NCBI GenBank assembly: GCA_030530825.1
Contig: JAUMUF010000001.1
Span: 1-64,000, forward strand
Direction of reading: 5' to 3'
Length of the DNA stretch: 64,000 nucleotides
Source: a bacterium
Lineage (GTDB): Bacteria; Patescibacteriota; Saccharimonadia; Saccharimonadales; Saccharimonadaceae
A model generated the notes under the pieces. It was not told where the DNA came from. It was given only the letters and a program-made list of their open reading frames with translations, and did no database searches. Below, one piece after another: positions 3,136 to 12,576 of this stretch; within the stretch, counting starts at the first letter, position 1, and each line of letters opens with the position of its first letter. The translations under genes were made by a program, and so were the position numbers.

Positions 3136-3453
3136 ATGACTATTCCAATATCAACATACAGGAAGTTGGTAGATTTTATATCTCGCGACCATTTTGATAA
3201 AAAAATGCTTGCTATGAGAATGATAGCCTACTCATATCCTGATTCTGTTATTATAGAATATCTTGGTTCTGAAACGATATATAACACCATTTATATCGAG
3301 CATGAAAAAAAGATAGCCAATCTTACAGAGGAAATTCGGAAACAACTGAGAGATTCAAGAATGTTTACAGAAGAGTACTTTGATGGATATGAAGCTATAG
3401 CACAAGTATACGGTCTCTCTAGAGAGGATATAATTAATCTGGCAGAGGCATAG
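3136..3453 (+). CDS. Hypothetical protein (105 aa)
   Basis: No family is recognised. The frame is open further upstream, but that part overlaps the probable promoter and leader hairpin. ATG 3136 has a GAGAGGGA site 7-10 nt upstream and is preferred. The protein is mixed alpha/beta; its C-terminal half (LTEEIRKQLRD ... YGLSREDIINLAEA) looks helical, with a possible helix-turn-helix at the end. It is a single-gene unit ended by strong terminators. Confidence 0.55.
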   Translation: MTIPISTYRKLVDFISRDHFDKKMLAMRMIAYSYPDSVIIEYLGSETIYNTIYIEHEKKIANLTEEIRKQLRDSRMFTEEYFDGYEAIAQVYGLSREDIINLAEA

Positions 3454-3494: not shown

Positions 3495-3513
3495 GGTGTT
3501 ATAAATTAAATAC

Positions 3514-3546
3514 AAAAACCCACCTTGGAAGTAAGGTGGGTTTTTG
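3514..3546 (+). terminator. Second strong hairpin terminator
   Basis: ACCCACCTT (3518-3526) pairs with AAGGTGGGT, followed by T5. It also faces the end of the minus-strand zinc-ribbon operon and may serve both directions. Confidence 0.7.
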
Positions 3547-3559
3547 CATAGAGGGGACT

Positions 3560-3697
3560 TTATCTTTCACTAAAAGAAATAGAATAACCTTTCATTGAAC
3601 AATTAGGATTATTGCAAGCTTTAATAACCTTTCCTCTGGCTTCGTCATATTGCTGAACCATCAGCCAATCACCACATTTTGTACATCTTTCTGCCAT
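3560..3697 (-). CDS. 45-aa zinc-ribbon protein
   Basis: This short gene encodes 45 residues beginning MAERCTKCGDWL. C5-x2-C8 and C28-x4-C33 form a likely zinc-binding pair of knuckles. GAAAGG lies just upstream of the ATG, which is 19 nt after the stop of the CFI-box gene, so it is the last gene of that operon. The spacer (ACATAGAAAGG) resembles the spacer between two other mini-genes in the same operon (ACATAGAGAAAGGG near 5750-5765), which suggests the units spread by local duplication. Function is unknown; the family is general zinc ribbon. Confidence 0.65.
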   Translation of the reverse strand: MAERCTKCGDWLMVQQYDEARGKVIKACNNPNCSMKGYSISFSER

Positions 3698-3716
3698 TTT
3701 TGTAACCTTTCTATGT

Positions 3717-5417
3717 TTATTTTGTATAAGGACTATCTGAATAGCCTTGTTTTTTGAGTAGACCGATAAAAAAATCCAAAATTATTTTTGTAATTTTTTT
3801 AAATATTTTATTTTCTCCAAAACGAGCAACCATTTTAGGACTTATTTTGTAGTAAAGCCCAATAAATAATCTGCCTATAACACTTTTACGCAAGTAATAA
3901 TCCCTAAACCTTCGTAAAGTCCATACAGATGGACAATCATATGAACCATATACAGACGTTGCGATATAACAACCATCTTTATTTTGGGTAGGCTCTATTT
4001 TGGTAGTGTTTATATTTTTGCTAGTGTTGTCAATTGCTACATCGTAGTAATCGAACAAATCTTTATGATAGGTGAATTTAAAGTATAGTTCAAAATTACT
4101 ATATATAGCCAAGAGAGACCAGATGGAAACGATTAGGTCAAATTCTTCTGAGCTATAATCATTTTTCCAGAACGAATCTCCTAGCTCTAGTATTTTTAAC
4201 AACTCTATGTTTAATTTCTCTGTTTTATCCCAATTATCTGAGGATAACTTAGCGTCCCAGAATAATGCTATCAACTGAAAAGTAAGCCCCACTTTCGAGA
4301 TTGAATTATCTATATGGATTTTTTCGCCAAAGAAGAGTATCAAATCACCAAAGAATACCTCTCTTTGTGAACTTTCGCTACCGTATGAAGACACTATTTG
4401 AATAACTTGAGATTCATTAGAAGCTTTAACTATATCTTCGAAAATTTTTAGTTTAATCAGCATATCATTGCTAATTTCTGAAGAATAATAATGAAGATAA
4501 GATGAATATGGTTGCGAATAGTCCGGGAAAACTTCTTGTATTAAAAAACGATAATAATATTCATTAAAATAGTCTAAGTCTAGGCTTCCATAGTGCTCAA
4601 ATACTAAATGAAGAACTGCATCATATTCATTGCGATAATCTTTTAGAAACTCTTTTGCTGCTAAGCCATTTGATGAGGGATTTAAATCTATTCTTTCTTT
4701 TCTGGTTTTTATCCAGGCATCATAAATAGCATCTATTTCCTCATCTGTTTTTTCTATTAATTCTATTGGCTTACCTTCTTTGTATAGTTCTAAGTCCCTA
4801 CTTTCTAGCACTCTATCTCTGTCCGCTTCTCTAAGCGAATCAAACAAAGAACGATTTGTTTTTTTGGAATAATTTTCTTCAAAATCAGAATATACCGCCA
4901 ATGCAGCCCAAATGCTAGGTATGACGTCGTAGTATGCTATTGAACCAACATCATCCGCCCAGTCAAACAACATTGAATATAAAGTTTTGAAATATTTTTC
5001 AGAAGTATTATTATCATGCTTAGGCGATAATACATCATTAATAAAACAGCAATATATTCTTAATGTTTCTGAGTATAGTTTAGGGGTATTATGTTCTTCG
5101 AAAATATGCTGAAGTTCTTCGAAAAATTTTTTTGATGTTGAGCTATCGTTGAGTTCTTTAAACTTGTACGATTTTTGCTCTGAATCTAATTCAATAAACT
5201 GAATCAATTCTTGTAATTTTTTAGTTAGGTCTTTCGAATTATTGAGTTGCTCAAAATGCACTTTATTGGCTCTCAAATATTCTTTGGCAAAAAAGCGAAT
5301 TGATTGATAGGAGAGTAAGAAATTGATAGCCTCTGTCTTATTGCTGCTTATTCCGCCAGGATTCGAAAAACCTATATAATCCGATAAACAATTGACGCCA
5401 TGAGTAACTAAAATCAT
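3717..5417 (-). CDS. Large protein with C-terminal CFI-box domain (566 aa)
   Basis: The C-terminal 65-70 residues match the CFI-box C-terminal domain: CYIATSVYGS, then VWTLRRFRDYYL, then a segment around GRLFIGLYYKISPKMV and a final hydrophobic stretch (about residues 478-550). That domain is found at the end of many otherwise unrelated bacterial proteins and its role is not settled. The first 470 residues are acidic, helical, rich in Asp/Glu/Tyr/Ser, and match nothing I recognise; they contain two loosely similar halves (SIWAALAVYSDFEENY near 170 and SIWSLLAIYSNFELYF near 430), which suggests an internal duplication. The gene lies between mini zinc-ribbon genes in one operon. Confidence 0.7.
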   Translation of the reverse strand: MILVTHGVNCLSDYIGFSNPGGISSNKTEAINFLLSYQSIRFFAKEYLRANKVHFEQLNNSKDLTKKLQELIQFIELDSEQKSYKFKELNDSSTSKKFFEELQHIFEEHNTPKLYSETLRIYCCFINDVLSPKHDNNTSEKYFKTLYSMLFDWADDVGSIAYYDVIPSIWAALAVYSDFEENYSKKTNRSLFDSLREADRDRVLESRDLELYKEGKPIELIEKTDEEIDAIYDAWIKTRKERIDLNPSSNGLAAKEFLKDYRNEYDAVLHLVFEHYGSLDLDYFNEYYYRFLIQEVFPDYSQPYSSYLHYYSSEISNDMLIKLKIFEDIVKASNESQVIQIVSSYGSESSQREVFFGDLILFFGEKIHIDNSISKVGLTFQLIALFWDAKLSSDNWDKTEKLNIELLKILELGDSFWKNDYSSEEFDLIVSIWSLLAIYSNFELYFKFTYHKDLFDYYDVAIDNTSKNINTTKIEPTQNKDGCYIATSVYGSYDCPSVWTLRRFRDYYLRKSVIGRLFIGLYYKISPKMVARFGENKIFKKITKIILDFFIGLLKKQGYSDSPYTK

Positions 5418-5470
5418 TTTTTTGTCCTCGGTATTCTTTATATCGACTTAATAATACTTTAGATTATTAA

Positions 5471-5569
5471 TTAAATCCTATTATGGCAGTTGCAACACTC
5501 TGAAGAACGATCGCTAGTTGGCTGACCGCAAATAGGGCACTCGATAGTTGCTGTAATAATAATTTTCAT
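5471..5569 (-). CDS. 32-aa zinc-ribbon peptide
   Basis: ATG 5569 starts one base after the TAA of the preceding mini-gene (TAA-A-ATG), so translation is probably coupled. The peptide has a CPICG knuckle followed by C-C-x-C-H near the end (C12, C15, C25, C26, C28), typical of a minimal zinc ribbon. The frame is open upstream as far as 5707, but there it overlaps the neighbouring cysteine-rich gene in another frame, so the short form is preferred. Confidence 0.55.
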   Translation of the reverse strand: MKIIITATIECPICGQPTSDRSSECCNCHNRI

Positions 5570-5570
5570 T

Positions 5571-5720
5571 TTACCACCATCCGGATTTCTTTTCACATCT
5601 ACCAAAGGAAGTGCATCCGTGACTAGATAGATTGTAATAAATCGCTTCTTTACATGAATCGCATTTATTGCCACGTAAATCTTTTTCGCAAGCACAAGCC
5701 CATTCATTAAGATTTCCCAT
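5571..5720 (-). CDS. 49-aa six-cysteine mini-protein, paralogue B
   Basis: It begins MGNLNEWACACEKD and ends GRCEKKSGWW. The six cysteines (C9, C11, C20, C23, C36, C42) align with those of the 51-aa gene just upstream, and both share the MG-x-LNEW-x-CACEKD start and the C-x-KKSGW end. The C-x-C and C-x2-C spacing suggests metal binding. GAAGG lies 8 nt before ATG. The 71-nt gap to the upstream copy holds a hairpin (GTTCACT/AGTGAAC). No known family is recognised. Confidence 0.6.
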   Translation of the reverse strand: MGNLNEWACACEKDLRGNKCDSCKEAIYYNLSSHGCTSFGRCEKKSGWW

Positions 5721-5791
5721 AATCAAAACCTTCGTTCACTTGATGTAGTGAACCCTTTCTCTATGTTTGTATTTTTATTTTAGTTGGATTT

Positions 5792-5947
5792 TCACCAACC
5801 ACTTTTCTTTTGACAATCGCCCCAAGAAGTAGGGCACATATGAAACGAAAAATCATTTAAGATACTCGAACGACAGCTCTCGCATTTTTGCCCGTTTCGA
5901 GAACTATCTTTTTCGCAGGCACAAATCCACTCATTAAGGCTTCCCAT
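5792..5947 (-). CDS. 51-aa six-cysteine mini-protein, paralogue A
   Basis: It begins MGSLNEWICACEKD and ends GDCQKKSGW. Conserved cysteines are C9, C11, C22, C25, C38 and C45. A strong AAGGAG site (5956-5951) lies within the 13-nt gap after the upstream gene's TAG at 5961, so it is in the same operon. About half of its residues match paralogue B, so the pair looks like an old tandem duplication under selection. Function is unknown; a small zinc-binding or redox protein is the most that can be inferred. Confidence 0.6.
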   Translation of the reverse strand: MGSLNEWICACEKDSSRNGQKCESCRSSILNDFSFHMCPTSWGDCQKKSGW

Positions 5948-5960
5948 ATTAAACTCCTTC

Positions 5961-6347
5961 CTAGCTTTGAAGCATTTCTATGAGCTGTACTTCTTTATCT
6001 TTGCTTGCTCTTGGATTAGCTAAGCCGTCAACAGGCCAGAAAGATTTATGCCCCATAGTGATAATTAAGATACGGCAAAAATTCCCCATATCTTTTACGT
6101 AAACTTGCAAAGCCCAAACGTCATGTAGGGAATTATGTCTAAAATACCTTAGTCCGCCAAGAATACCTAGCTGACCTTCAATCAGAACCTCAATATCGGC
6201 TCTATCATCAAAAGCGCTCAAAACATCACCTTGAAGATTTTGTATGCTACCCTTATAAGTACTAGCAAACGCCCGTAAAATATCAGTAACTTGCTTTATA
6301 GGCTTAGCTACTTCAATTGAAACTTCTGTATGGACCTCTTTAACCAT
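5961..6347 (-). CDS. Hypothetical protein, first gene of the Cys-rich operon (128 aa)
   Basis: No family is recognised. The sequence predicts alternating beta strands and one N-terminal helix (KQVTDILRAFASTYKG), with a single Cys, no signal peptide and no membrane segment. A strong TAGGAGG site precedes ATG 6347. Five small or large genes follow in the same direction with gaps of 1 to about 70 nt, so it leads the operon. It sits between those genes and the recombinase dyads at 6398-6532. Confidence 0.6.
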   Translation of the reverse strand: MVKEVHTEVSIEVAKPIKQVTDILRAFASTYKGSIQNLQGDVLSAFDDRADIEVLIEGQLGILGGLRYFRHNSLHDVWALQVYVKDMGNFCRILIITMGHKSFWPVDGLANPRASKDKEVQLIEMLQS

Positions 6348-6397
6348 GCAGACCTCCTAATAATATTTTCTCTCAATCCCTGCTACAGGATTAGTGA

Positions 6398-6425
6398 TAT
6401 TCTATCTAACGAACGTTTTTTAGAA
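6398..6425. repeat. 28-bp dyad A, AA centre
   Basis: ATTCTA-N4-ACG-AA-CGT-N4-TAGAA is an imperfect dyad with a two-base centre, the geometry of a serine-recombinase crossover or binding site. It matches dyad B (6505-6532) at 22 of 28 positions in direct alignment, but the centres agree (AA) only when B is inverted. Confidence 0.55.
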
Positions 6426-6426
6426 G

Positions 6427-6500
6427 TCTCAAGATAATATTTTTAGAAGCACTATATCAGTTGATTTTATTCAATTCGATTAGGTGCTTCTTTTTATTTT
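6427..6500 (+). other. Segment between dyads with hairpin and T-rich tail
   Basis: AGAAGCAC (6445-6452) pairs with GTGCTTCT (6484-6491), followed by a T-rich run on the plus strand, which is a terminator shape pointing away from the Cys-rich operon. On the minus strand, TTGAGA (6432-6427) is 17 nt from TTAGAT (6409-6404), a plausible operon promoter whose -10 lies inside dyad A. Confidence 0.4.
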
Positions 6501-6504
6501 TAAG

Positions 6505-6532
6505 TATTCTATTTGACGTTCGTTTCTTAGAA
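6505..6532. repeat. 28-bp dyad B, TT centre
   Basis: ATTCTA-N4-ACG-TT-CGT-N4-TAGAAT is a clean dyad 25 bp downstream of the recombinase stop. It pairs with dyad A at 6398-6425; their centres are 107 bp apart. Confidence 0.55.
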
Positions 6533-6556
6533 TATTTACACTTACATTTTACTCTT

Positions 6557-7194
6557 TTATCTCTTTATTTGCAAGTAATTTTGTGTTTTTTTTGATTTTA
6601 ATGGAATTTTGTTGCGATGAAGCACATTATATACTGTTGCGACAGATATTTCAGTGACTGAAGCAATATTTTTGACTTTTACTTCATTTTGATACAGTAG
6701 AATGACTTCCTGCTCAATCTTACGGGAAATACCAGGATTCCCCAACTTAACGCCACGCTCTCTAGCTTTTCTTAAGCCATCTTTAGTTCGTGATTTTATA
6801 GCTTCAAGTTCCATTTCTGCGACATAACCCAACAATACGACCAGTAGTTTTCCAGTAAGCGACTTTGTGTCTATATTTTCTTGAATGCTTATCAGTTGAA
6901 TATCTTTCTCAGAAAAATCTCTTAGTATATCTACAAGAGTAAACATTCTTCTAGTCAATCTATCTAGTCTATATACCACGATTGAAACTGACTTCCCTTG
7001 CCTCCTTAATCTTTTAGCTAGTCTTATGATTTGAAGTAGCTCCTTGCGGTTATCTTGACCACCAGATTCTTTCTCTGTAAAGAGAATATCACAGTTAGCC
7101 AAAGCCTCTTTTTGAACTTCTAAACCTAATAGCTGGCGATTGTCTGTGGAGCTAACACGGGCATAGCCGCTTTTAGCTTCTTACTTATATTCAA
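6557..7194 (-). pseudogene. Serine recombinase (resolvase/invertase), frameshifted near its start
   Basis: The frame carries the whole small serine recombinase fold: YARVSS with the catalytic Ser, VVYRLDRLTR, the SLTGKLLVVLLGYVAEMELE core, the E-helix KARERGVKLGNPG, and a C-terminal helix-turn-helix (KNIASVTEISVATVYNVL). No ATG, GTG or TTG occurs in frame upstream of YARVSS; a TAA lies at 7183-7181. In another frame AAGGAG (7206-7201) is 6 nt before TTG 7194, and adding a single A within AAGAAGC near 7178 joins that start to the recombinase (reading MNISKKAKSGYARVS). So this looks like a one-base deletion. An internal TTG at 7102 would omit the catalytic Ser. Confidence 0.75.
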
Positions 7195-10397: not shown

Positions 10398-10853
10398 ATG
10401 AAACTAACTGTTATATCTGTTGGGAAGAAGCATAATAAGTTGCTTGCGGGCGCGATTGCGGATTTTGAAAAGCGGTTGCGTGCGCCGTTTAATTTTGAGT
10501 GGCGGTTTTTGACGAGTTCGATTTTTGAAGGAGAAAAAGCGCGCATTGAAGAAAGTGAACGGCTAGAAAAACTCCTTTCGAACGATGATTTTGTGATTTT
10601 GCTAGATGAGCGTGGGCGGAATTTTTCAAGTCCAGAGTTGGCTGAAATTTTAACTCATAATTTATCGCAGAAAAATGTTAAGATTGTTATTGGTGGTGCG
10701 TTTGGCGTTTCTGATAACTTTCGAAGCCGTGCCAATCTGGTGTGGAGCCTTTCGAAGTTGGTTTTTCCACATCAAATTGTCCGCCTCGTCCTTGCCGAGC
10801 AAATCTACCGCGCGCAAGAAATTTCCAGAGGCGGAAAATATCACCATGAGTAA
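10398..10853 (+). CDS. rlmH: 23S rRNA (pseudouridine1915-N3)-methyltransferase RlmH
   Basis: RlmH is a small SPOUT methyltransferase that methylates pseudouridine 1915 in helix 69 of 23S rRNA on assembled ribosomes, using SAM. The 151-aa length fits. Seen: the N-terminal LTVISVGKKH strand, DERGRNFSSPELAE, the knot motif IVIGGAFGVSD, and the C-terminal VRLVLAEQIYRAQEISRGGKYHH tail. The usual GGPxG is GGAFG here. TAAAAT at 10386-10391 lies 6 nt before ATG, indicating a leaderless mRNA. Confidence 0.95.
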   Translation: MKLTVISVGKKHNKLLAGAIADFEKRLRAPFNFEWRFLTSSIFEGEKARIEESERLEKLLSNDDFVILLDERGRNFSSPELAEILTHNLSQKNVKIVIGGAFGVSDNFRSRANLVWSLSKLVFPHQIVRLVLAEQIYRAQEISRGGKYHHE

Positions 10854-10905: not shown

Positions 10906-11034
10906 AGACATAAGCATTGTAAAAGGTGAAATTCGAAACAAGATATAAGTGCAAAAATAACAAATAAATTCGAAACTCCACAAAACCTAAAGCAATCATA
11001 AAAGAAATTATTATTAAAAAAGGAGATGAAAACA

Positions 11035-12576
11035 ATGAAAGTAAAAAATACCAATTTTAAAGTTGCGGTTTTTGCCGTAGCTACTGTTTCTCTTGGGGCG
11101 GCTTCTTCTGTAAATTTTATGCAAAATATTTACCTACAGAGCAATAATCAGGATATCAGCGTCTATGCTGCGGAAGGTCGTAAAATAGCTATCAATAGTG
11201 CTACCGGCACGATTGAAAGTAAAGATATTCAGGTTTCGTCTCATCATGTTGATGCTCTCAATCTCTCGATTAGGCTTGCGGATGCCAATATTCAAGCTGG
11301 TGATTATATTGAGATTAAGTTTAATAATATAAATGCTTCGAGTGAGACTTTCGATAATCGAGAAATTCGAATTAATGACGAAATAATTGGCTCTCTTAAA
11401 TTTGCTGGAGGTCATGCACTTGGTGGGGGTGTGGGTTTTGATGATTTGCCATTAGGCGCTGGTACTCTGAGCTATACATATAATCTGGTTTTCAATGAAA
11501 ATATGGCAAAATATAAGGATAGGAATATAGAGATTTCCTCGGAAAACCTCCTATCTTGGCAGGCTAAAACTACTAAAGATTACGAACTAATACAATCGGT
11601 TGTGGTCGCAGATAATCTGGTTGCAAGTAAGAAGATTCAGATTAAGGCGGTTATCCCAACTCCTCCAAGTTATCCATATGTATCGTTTGATCGGGTGTGG
11701 CTGAGTACTGACGATGGTGAAACGATCAAGACAAACGGTATTGTAGTTAATATTACCCAACAATATAGACATCCGGAAAATAGACTTCGTGCAGGTGATA
11801 TTGTTGAATATAATATTCCTAGTAACTTTGGTGTAGCTTTTGATGAAGAAGTCGGTAGAGAGATTCGCTATTCTGAGCCTATGAACACATATTCTGAGTT
11901 TGATAAAATTAATCCTCAGGGTGTTATTAGTAACAATCAAAAACCTACTATCACTAAAGTCATTGAAGCTTCACCGCATCGGGTTAAGGTTCAGATTATT
12001 GAAATTGAAGGTGATGCTTACGAGGGTCTTTCTACACTTAGATCTAAAATACTTGACACTTCACCTAAAACTATAAATTATAATGAGTCTAAACTTGTTG
12101 AAGCAATGGGCGTCACTCGGGTTATTCGAGAAGGTCAAGAAATCCATAAAGATGAGAGGAATATTTTTGGGCAAATTACTGGCGCTAAAATGAAATCATA
12201 TGGCCAAATTCGAAAACGAGGTTCGGTTATTCGACAGATTATTGACGAGAATGGTAATAAAATAGAAGGGTTGGAGTCTGATAAGCTCATTCTTGAGCGA
12301 GTTCAGGAGGGGACTGCTTATCATGTTGAAGCTCCACAGATTGAAGGTTATGTTTTTAAGCGTCTTGCTGTAGATTCTTCTGAGCAGAAAGGTGTTGTAG
12401 AAGAAGGTGTTAAAAATGTTATTCTTGTCTATGGTAGGCCTAACATTCAAAAAGAAGAAAATAAATCTGAAGAAATCCAAGCTCCAAACACTGGATTTTC
12501 TGGTGGAATTTCTGCCCTTGCCCTTTCAACACTCAGCTTGCTTGGTACTGCCACATTATTAGTTCGCAAGCGATAA
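11035..12576 (+). CDS. Surface adhesin-like protein with MucBP-type repeat and APNTGF tail (513 aa)
   Basis: Order of parts: a signal peptide (about 1-35), a beta-rich region resembling Gram-positive adhesin Ig folds (about 45-370), a single MucBP-like module (about 385-470; RKRGSVIRQIIDENGNKI ... EGYVFKRLAVDS), then a wall-sorting tail: APNTGF, a hydrophobic helix and the basic end LVRKR. This tail has sortase-substrate layout with APNTG in place of LPXTG. ATG 11035 is 9 nt after AGGAG (11021-11025); the ATG at 11026 overlaps that site and is rejected. It likely sits on the cell surface, perhaps for host contact; that role is inferred. Confidence 0.8.
   Translation: MKVKNTNFKVAVFAVATVSLGAASSVNFMQNIYLQSNNQDISVYAAEGRKIAINSATGTIESKDIQVSSHHVDALNLSIRLADANIQAGDYIEIKFNNINASSETFDNREIRINDEIIGSLKFAGGHALGGGVGFDDLPLGAGTLSYTYNLVFNENMAKYKDRNIEISSENLLSWQAKTTKDYELIQSVVVADNLVASKKIQIKAVIPTPPSYPYVSFDRVWLSTDDGETIKTNGIVVNITQQYRHPENRLRAGDIVEYNIPSNFGVAFDEEVGREIRYSEPMNTYSEFDKINPQGVISNNQKPTITKVIEASPHRVKVQIIEIEGDAYEGLSTLRSKILDTSPKTINYNESKLVEAMGVTRVIREGQEIHKDERNIFGQITGAKMKSYGQIRKRGSVIRQIIDENGNKIEGLESDKLILERVQEGTAYHVEAPQIEGYVFKRLAVDSSEQKGVVEEGVKNVILVYGRPNIQKEENKSEEIQAPNTGFSGGISALALSTLSLLGTATLLVRKR

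Follow-up and report, generated by a model that had tools for sequence, protein, structure and literature searches.

A foreign-looking operon in a Saccharimonadaceae genome places a CFI-box protein beside an unnamed protein family and putative zinc-binding mini-proteins

The first 64,000 nucleotides of contig JAUMUF010000001.1 (assembly GCA_030530825.1), called here the window, start one of the three contigs that make up the 687 kb genome of a bacterium of the family Saccharimonadaceae; sampled relatives in its order and family have genomes of 0.5 to 1.6 Mb. On the minus strand, positions 3560 to 6347 hold six open reading frames (ORFs) arranged head to tail, which together encode a large protein ending in a CFI-box, a 128-residue protein, and four cysteine-rich mini-proteins. 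In order of transcription, these are u128 (5961..6347), a member of an unnamed family with a predicted alpha/beta roll; a mini-protein of 51 residues with six cysteines (5792..5947); its tandem paralogue of 49 residues (5571..5720), for which a TTG two codons upstream gives an alternative length of 51 residues; a zinc-ribbon-like peptide of 32 residues with the spacing CxxC-x10-CxxC (5471..5569); an acidic, all-helical protein of 566 residues (3717..5417) with an internal duplication and, at residues 483-550, the CFI-box-CTERM domain (3768..3971); and a second zinc-ribbon-like peptide, of 45 residues, with the spacing CxxC-x19-CxxxxC (3560..3697).

Several observations support the view that the six genes form one transcription unit. 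The gaps between them, calculated from the coordinates from u128 down to the 45-residue gene, are 13, 71, 1, 53, and 19 nucleotides; a strong terminator-like hairpin of 17 pairs (3510..3549, minus strand) marks the 3' end of the operon; and a Shine-Dalgarno-like motif is present at five of the six starts, as compared with 153 of the 1559 ATGs in the window (about 10%). The sole member without such a motif is the 32-residue ORF, whose start lies 1 nucleotide past the stop of the 49-residue gene. The six head-to-tail genes listed in the first-pass annotation are all present in the ORF list and its translations. That annotation had also taken them as one co-evolving unit; the unit of transcription stands, while the literal six-gene set is conserved nowhere in the material searched.

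The 51- and 49-residue mini-proteins are encoded by genuine genes, in line with their first listing, and are diverged tandem paralogues under purifying selection. They share 63% identity, with all six cysteines and one histidine kept. The ratio of nonsynonymous to synonymous substitution (dN/dS) between them is 0.39/2.21 (0.18) by NG86 and 0.37/0.94 (0.40) by LWL85, and 30 of 48 aligned codons encode the same residue, whereas simulations with an equal number of changes (n=2000) give a mean of 15.8 and never reach 30. Because both the ratios and the simulations indicate purifying selection, these two ORFs are taken as genes. Tandem duplication of the pair also explains the "repeated spacer motifs" noticed earlier: a 55-nucleotide repeat with 82% identity does exist (minus strand, 5679..5733 and 5906..5960, at the start regions of the 49- and 51-residue genes, respectively), but most of it is coding sequence from the 5' ends of both genes rather than spacer. 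Codon usage is uninformative here, since the mini-genes score like spurious ORFs and even the undoubted CFI-box gene scores low.

Relatives of the six-cysteine pair were sought in several collections. None was found in plasmids, in the collection viral_contigs, or, using two short exact-match patterns, in the collection genome_contigs; such pattern scans reach close relatives only. Among 60 relatives of the bacterium, five further weak places (E 0.006-0.08) were seen, four of them with internal stops, and none was accepted, and in 379 genomes sampled from the phylum the single weak place seen is interrupted by an in-frame stop. The 49-residue protein also matches Laminin-EGF (PF00053), at 20.7 bits against a gathering score of 21 and with no signal peptide, and RALF; since both matches fall under the cut-off and are absent from the 63% identical paralogue, they are attributed to chance cysteine spacing.

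The 32- and 45-residue peptides are the least secure of the six genes. Neither has a paralogue, and their support comes from cysteine spacing and position, together with the Shine-Dalgarno-like motif of the 45-residue gene. The 32-residue peptide scores 16.6 bits against PF13248 and similar families (gathering score 27), and its cysteines are spaced as in a zinc ribbon, while the 45-residue peptide scores 10.2 bits against Zn_ribbon_bTOP1 (PF21372; gathering score 27, E 0.7). The label "zinc ribbon" given to both in the first pass consequently holds for the spacing and not for the family assignment, as every Pfam match is under cut-off. Metal binding by the mini-proteins remains putative, being read from their cysteines.

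The C-terminal end of the 566-residue protein is firmly assigned. Residues 483-550 match the CFI-box, NCBIfam NF041770, scoring 75.2 bits where the cut-off is 40 (E 2.5e-21), which bears out the initial assignment. The box pattern, CYIAT..GSYDCP..W.LRRFRD..GRLFI..YY..SP, is found at the extreme C-terminus, as in other NF041770 proteins, and is modelled as four helices with a predicted local distance difference test (pLDDT) score mostly >90. Unlike those proteins, the window protein has an almost unique helical part and no fused zinc ribbon: the chain contains no CxxC..CxxC and hence no N-terminal ribbon, and the ribbon-like peptides are separate ORFs. The region outside the box is helical and includes a stretch of about 150 residues that is duplicated internally, as indicated by a self-comparison run without composition correction (E 4e-9). 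The closest match to this part is a Vagococcus protein, at best 30% over 318 aligned columns. A fold search with the model returned only generic helical solenoids, in listed rows lying outside the CFI-box region (481-556), and a profile search of PDB sequences returned mainly TPR and designed repeat proteins, because other rows of the alignment hold TPR parts. The protein has no match in viral_contigs.

None of the six proteins has a segment hydrophobic enough for a membrane helix (the best 19-residue Kyte-Doolittle mean is 1.44), and no signal segment was found in any of them, which makes the surface role once suggested for the locus unlikely. In the window protein, the final helix of the CFI-box is basic and has a pronounced amphipathic character, its moment of 0.59 being reached by 0.5% of shuffles. 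In the CFI-box family as a whole, however, the last helix has a median moment of 0.38, and a median of 21% of shuffles reach its own value. Since amphipathicity is no family trait, the idea of the CFI-box as a membrane anchor is not adopted as the principal explanation.

Related CFI-box loci were taken as the best 80 of 207 from genome_contigs, mostly from Clostridia, plus 10 from viral_contigs; the ribbon count uses the 87 complete ORFs of the 90, the three cut by a contig end being left out. An N-terminal zinc ribbon (CxxC..CxxC) is fused to the CFI-box protein in 46 of these 87, and the box sits 74-92 residues from the C-terminus in all 89 ORFs in which CYIAT-type residues were found. Because ribbon and box so often share one chain, we infer a functional link between them (the Rosetta-stone argument), in agreement with the association proposed in the first pass. 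Clostridial proteins that combine a zinc ribbon, a TPR or helical part, and a CFI-box (L028, L039), and the Clostridioides phage protein pCD1602_4, with ribbon, helices, and CFI-box in a single chain, resemble the window in having ribbon and box together and differ from it in that the ribbon is fused there and encoded by separate mini-genes here. A partial parallel is seen in L097 and L100, where a ribbon-less CFI-box ORF is followed directly by a run of zinc-ribbon-headed proteins. The locus can be read as a variant of this poorly understood CFI-box kind, with the ribbon-like peptides as separate genes. In the literature collection searched, no paper mentions "CFI-box" or "CFI-box-CTERM", and none joins Saccharibacteria, small proteins, and zinc ribbon.

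The genes beside CFI-box genes elsewhere are diverse. The commonest recurrent neighbour, in 10 of 98 loci, is an SPFH/Band-7 gene (L046, L079, L035, L057, L090, L106, L049, L073, L047, and L091), and the SPFH proteins of at least L046 and L079 carry C-terminal zinc ribbons of the WTCPxCG type. JAB/MPN-like genes adjoin CFI-box genes at L044:4364-6333 (a match under the Pfam cut-off), L050:4717-7035, and L082:4197-6261, each with a cysteine-rich mini-ORF between or beside the two; L044 also has a 58-residue ORF with a DnaJ-type CXXCXGXG-like motif, and L068 has a kinase-like gene beside its CFI-box gene. In another genome of the same phylum, the CFI-box ends a protein whose N-terminus is signal-like and whose C-terminus is hydrophobic (L010:322-1806), which indicates that the box is also carried by probably secreted proteins. 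On an Aneurinibacillus plasmid, an unannotated CFI-box ORF of 106 residues (L020:4908-5228) is flanked by a type I-B cas3 gene on one side and a CBS-domain gene on the other.

u128 receives no name from Pfam, NCBIfam, or PHROG. Within the CFI-box loci, its only good tblastn matches are the genes directly downstream of the CFI-box gene in two clostridial operons, L063 and L086 (pairwise E-values of 3e-12 and 9e-12), so the 128-residue gene is indeed tied to CFI-box genes, as first suggested. In both operons the order is DnaK, GrpE, J-protein, J-domain-TPR-CFI-box protein, and u128, with J-domain matches under Pfam's cut-off. A u128 family member beside a CFI-box gene is common to these operons and the window, whereas the gene order differs, the window lacks the Hsp70, GrpE, and J genes, and L063 and L086 lack the six-cysteine mini-genes. 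Upstream of the L063 operon are three small helical-looking ORFs (86, 109, and 91 residues), an FtsK/SpoIIIE ATPase, and a serine recombinase. With L119 (G427:C10:44000-63000), L063 belongs to a clostridial island that also contains several J-domain/TPR proteins and an RCC1-repeat protein and that looks like an undescribed multi-gene machine.

The u128 family is rare. Of the 80 CFI-box genomes, 50 were taken for the search and 3 gave a match, the third of these, in genome G465, lying inside a glycosyltransferase-like ORF (named by eye) and being taken as chance. The family was further found in 1 of 299 genomes of the family to which the L086 genome belongs and in 2 of 294 genomes of the window's order, the window genome included. 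No match was seen in viral_contigs, plasmids, or phages, and a PHROGs search gave nothing convincing. In genome G806, a plausible alignment (E 1.9e-4) places a u128-like stretch in a 316-residue ORF (L130:7937-8887); because the 15.5-kb contig carries no CFI-box gene, this neither helps nor harms the CFI-box link. About 700 bp upstream is a 61-residue CxxC..CxxxxC peptide (L130:7053-7238), which is no clear relative of the 45-residue peptide (E 0.026). The model of u128 (pLDDT 72, from three sequences) shows an alpha/beta roll whose nearest resemblance is to KA1 domains; against a SAD-kinase KA1, VIA-align gives a Z of 11.3 and a root-mean-square deviation (rmsd) of 2.6 Å over 91 residues, but Foldseek TM-scores for the query are <0.5. 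Some KA1 domains bind acidic lipids.

The cluster looks horizontally acquired, because 391 of the 392 order genomes lack a CFI-box gene, the G+C content is lower, and the neighbourhood is different in three genomes of the same genus. A CFI-box gene above cut-off occurs in 1 of the 392 order genomes, that of the window, and in 5 of 379 sampled from the phylum, window genome included; a weak match in genome G211 falls within a different ORF that by eye resembles phosphoglycerate mutase, and it is put down to chance. G+C is 32-35% across 3-7 kb as compared with mostly 35-49% elsewhere in the window, where it also falls to 32-33% in two other places, near 30 kb and near 55 kb. Three of four same-genus genomes keep a HIT-domain gene together with the gene at 10398-10853, and in the stretches fetched from these three none of the window genes to the left of this pair is present; the neighbour there is instead a PNPase-like gene or another one (named by eye). 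No match was obtained in the fourth. Upstream of the operon, on the same strand, is a serine recombinase of the Resolvase family (6557..7190), which has no usable start codon in frame and whose 5' end has probably decayed, as judged from the reading frame.

Other features surround the cluster. An imperfect 36-nucleotide inverted repeat (72%) at 6397-6535, between the recombinase and the operon, may be an operator or a recombination site. A plus-strand ORF of about 104 residues (3139-3453), without a convincing family, faces the operon across the terminator region. At the left end of the window, in the genus-variable region, a 278-residue protein (9-845) is weakly like DUF2806 (E 0.00027, under cut-off), and at 11026-12576 a 516-residue protein combines a MucBP domain with a C-terminus of the form PNTGF...KR, which we take to mark a likely sortase-type surface protein.

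Taken together, the favoured interpretation, held tentatively and at a little less than an even chance, is that the locus represents a compact counterpart of the clostridial CFI-box modules that arrived by horizontal transfer and is built as a scaffold with adaptors in trans, linked to chaperones; the cluster probably amounts to a stress or conflict module in reduced form. The 566-residue protein would be a helical-repeat scaffold capped by the CFI-box. Between one and four of the mini-proteins, translated separately from the shared transcript and binding zinc, would dock on this scaffold in trans as interchangeable recognition adaptors, and u128 would be a dedicated partner of the CFI-box protein. 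The module, acquired from or shared with Clostridia, would act as a chaperone-linked stress or conflict device whose recipient may use its own Hsp70 machinery or none. A chaperone-linked device appears most likely because the only clear relatives of u128 sit in Hsp70-GrpE-J-protein operons beside a CFI-box gene. A stress or conflict role is plausible because Firmicutes systems that combine Hsp70, GrpE, and J/TPR proteins are predicted conflict systems (PMC7159879). A bolder extension, which seems improbable, is that the CFI-box and u128 are the core of an unrecognised chaperone-coupled machine, with a full form in Clostridia (FtsK-like ATPase, small helical proteins, Hsp70, GrpE, J-proteins, CFI-box, and u128) and a minimal form here with split-off, swappable ribbons.

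Several points weigh against this interpretation. No Hsp70, GrpE, or J gene is present among the window proteins scanned, and an Hsp70 gene lies nearby in only 3 of 98 CFI-box loci; from this count and the 10 loci with SPFH, CFI-box proteins appear to work in several settings, the Hsp70 link being specific to the u128 branch. Even there, L063 and L086 come close to one observation, since they are related (their DnaK proteins are 66% identical). The helical part of the 566-residue protein is poorly modelled. The mini-proteins lack any recognisable homologue beyond this genome in the collections searched, and their link with the CFI-box therefore draws no support from conservation; the first-pass annotation had named the lack of conserved mini-genes beside the CFI-box gene in other genomes as grounds for refutation, and for the six-cysteine pair no such neighbours were found in these collections. 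A strict filter, applied to 85 loci after five near-duplicates were dropped, did find eight cysteine-rich mini-ORFs within 1.5 kb of clostridial CFI-box genes on the CFI strand, in six loci, as compared with two on the opposite strand and nine in 516 kb of distal sequence when its two strands are counted together. However, this filter was chosen after loci L044 and L050 had been seen, three of the eight ORFs come from L044, and a looser search counted 14 cysteine-rich ORFs on the CFI strand but 18 on the other. Because that search showed no strand bias, the enrichment is held lightly.

A strict anti-phage or interbacterial conflict system, in which the CFI-box protein and its adaptors would detect invasion and set off a response that kills or blocks, the whole being moved by the adjacent recombinase, is doubtful. 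It would suit a patchy, foreign-looking island with a recombinase remnant, and it draws on the JAB-like and kinase-like neighbours of other CFI-box genes and on the serine recombinases near those of L024, L028, and L106 and close to the L063 operon. Hsp70/GrpE/J modules in Firmicutes, moreover, are one theme of the GTPase-centred GAP1-N2 conflict systems (PMC7159879), a theme common to L063 and L086. Nonetheless, no enzymatic effector is found among the six genes, no GTPase or GAP1 was recognised in the scanned genes of L119 and L120, and PADLOC gives 0 matches for five window proteins at E 0.01 (the 49- and 32-residue peptides left out), which leaves the toxin or defence role proposed at the outset without direct evidence. 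The window was also considered as a GAP1-N2 system and rejected, as the six genes and scanned neighbours include no GTPase, GAP1, Hsp70, or GrpE; nor was an FNIII protein recognised in the genes scanned.

It is unlikely that the locus is instead a housekeeping module for stress or membrane homeostasis that, in the style of the SPFH/zinc-ribbon proteins, would tether zinc-ribbon adaptors near the membrane. The frequency of SPFH neighbours, some with C-terminal ribbons, the amphipathic last helix of the window protein, and the modelled resemblance of u128 to KA1 domains (Z 11.3, rmsd 2.6, 91 aligned) would fit such a role, yet the helix is no family trait, this operon has no SPFH gene, and absence from 391 of 392 order genomes fits poorly with housekeeping. 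Still less probable is decaying mobile-element cargo, recently acquired and without current function in the host: the recombinase has lost its 5' end, codon usage and G+C are atypical, and the cluster is found in this genome only, but each of the six frames is intact and has a start site, five of these sites being accompanied by Shine-Dalgarno-like motifs, and the mini-proteins have kept 30 of 48 residues and six cysteines since their duplication, though that selection could have acted in the donor. Chance open frames, for which the mini-ORFs' shortness, lack of homologues, and codon usage no better than that of spurious ORFs might speak, are very improbable given the paralogue dN/dS, the simulations, the Shine-Dalgarno-like motifs, and the 1-nucleotide coupling of the 49- and 32-residue genes.

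The CFI-box has been a named but uncharacterised C-terminal domain, and the link with zinc ribbons, together with u128, gives it concrete partners. Mini-proteins of 32-51 residues, which are often skipped by gene callers, can be core parts of a module in bacteria with small genomes.

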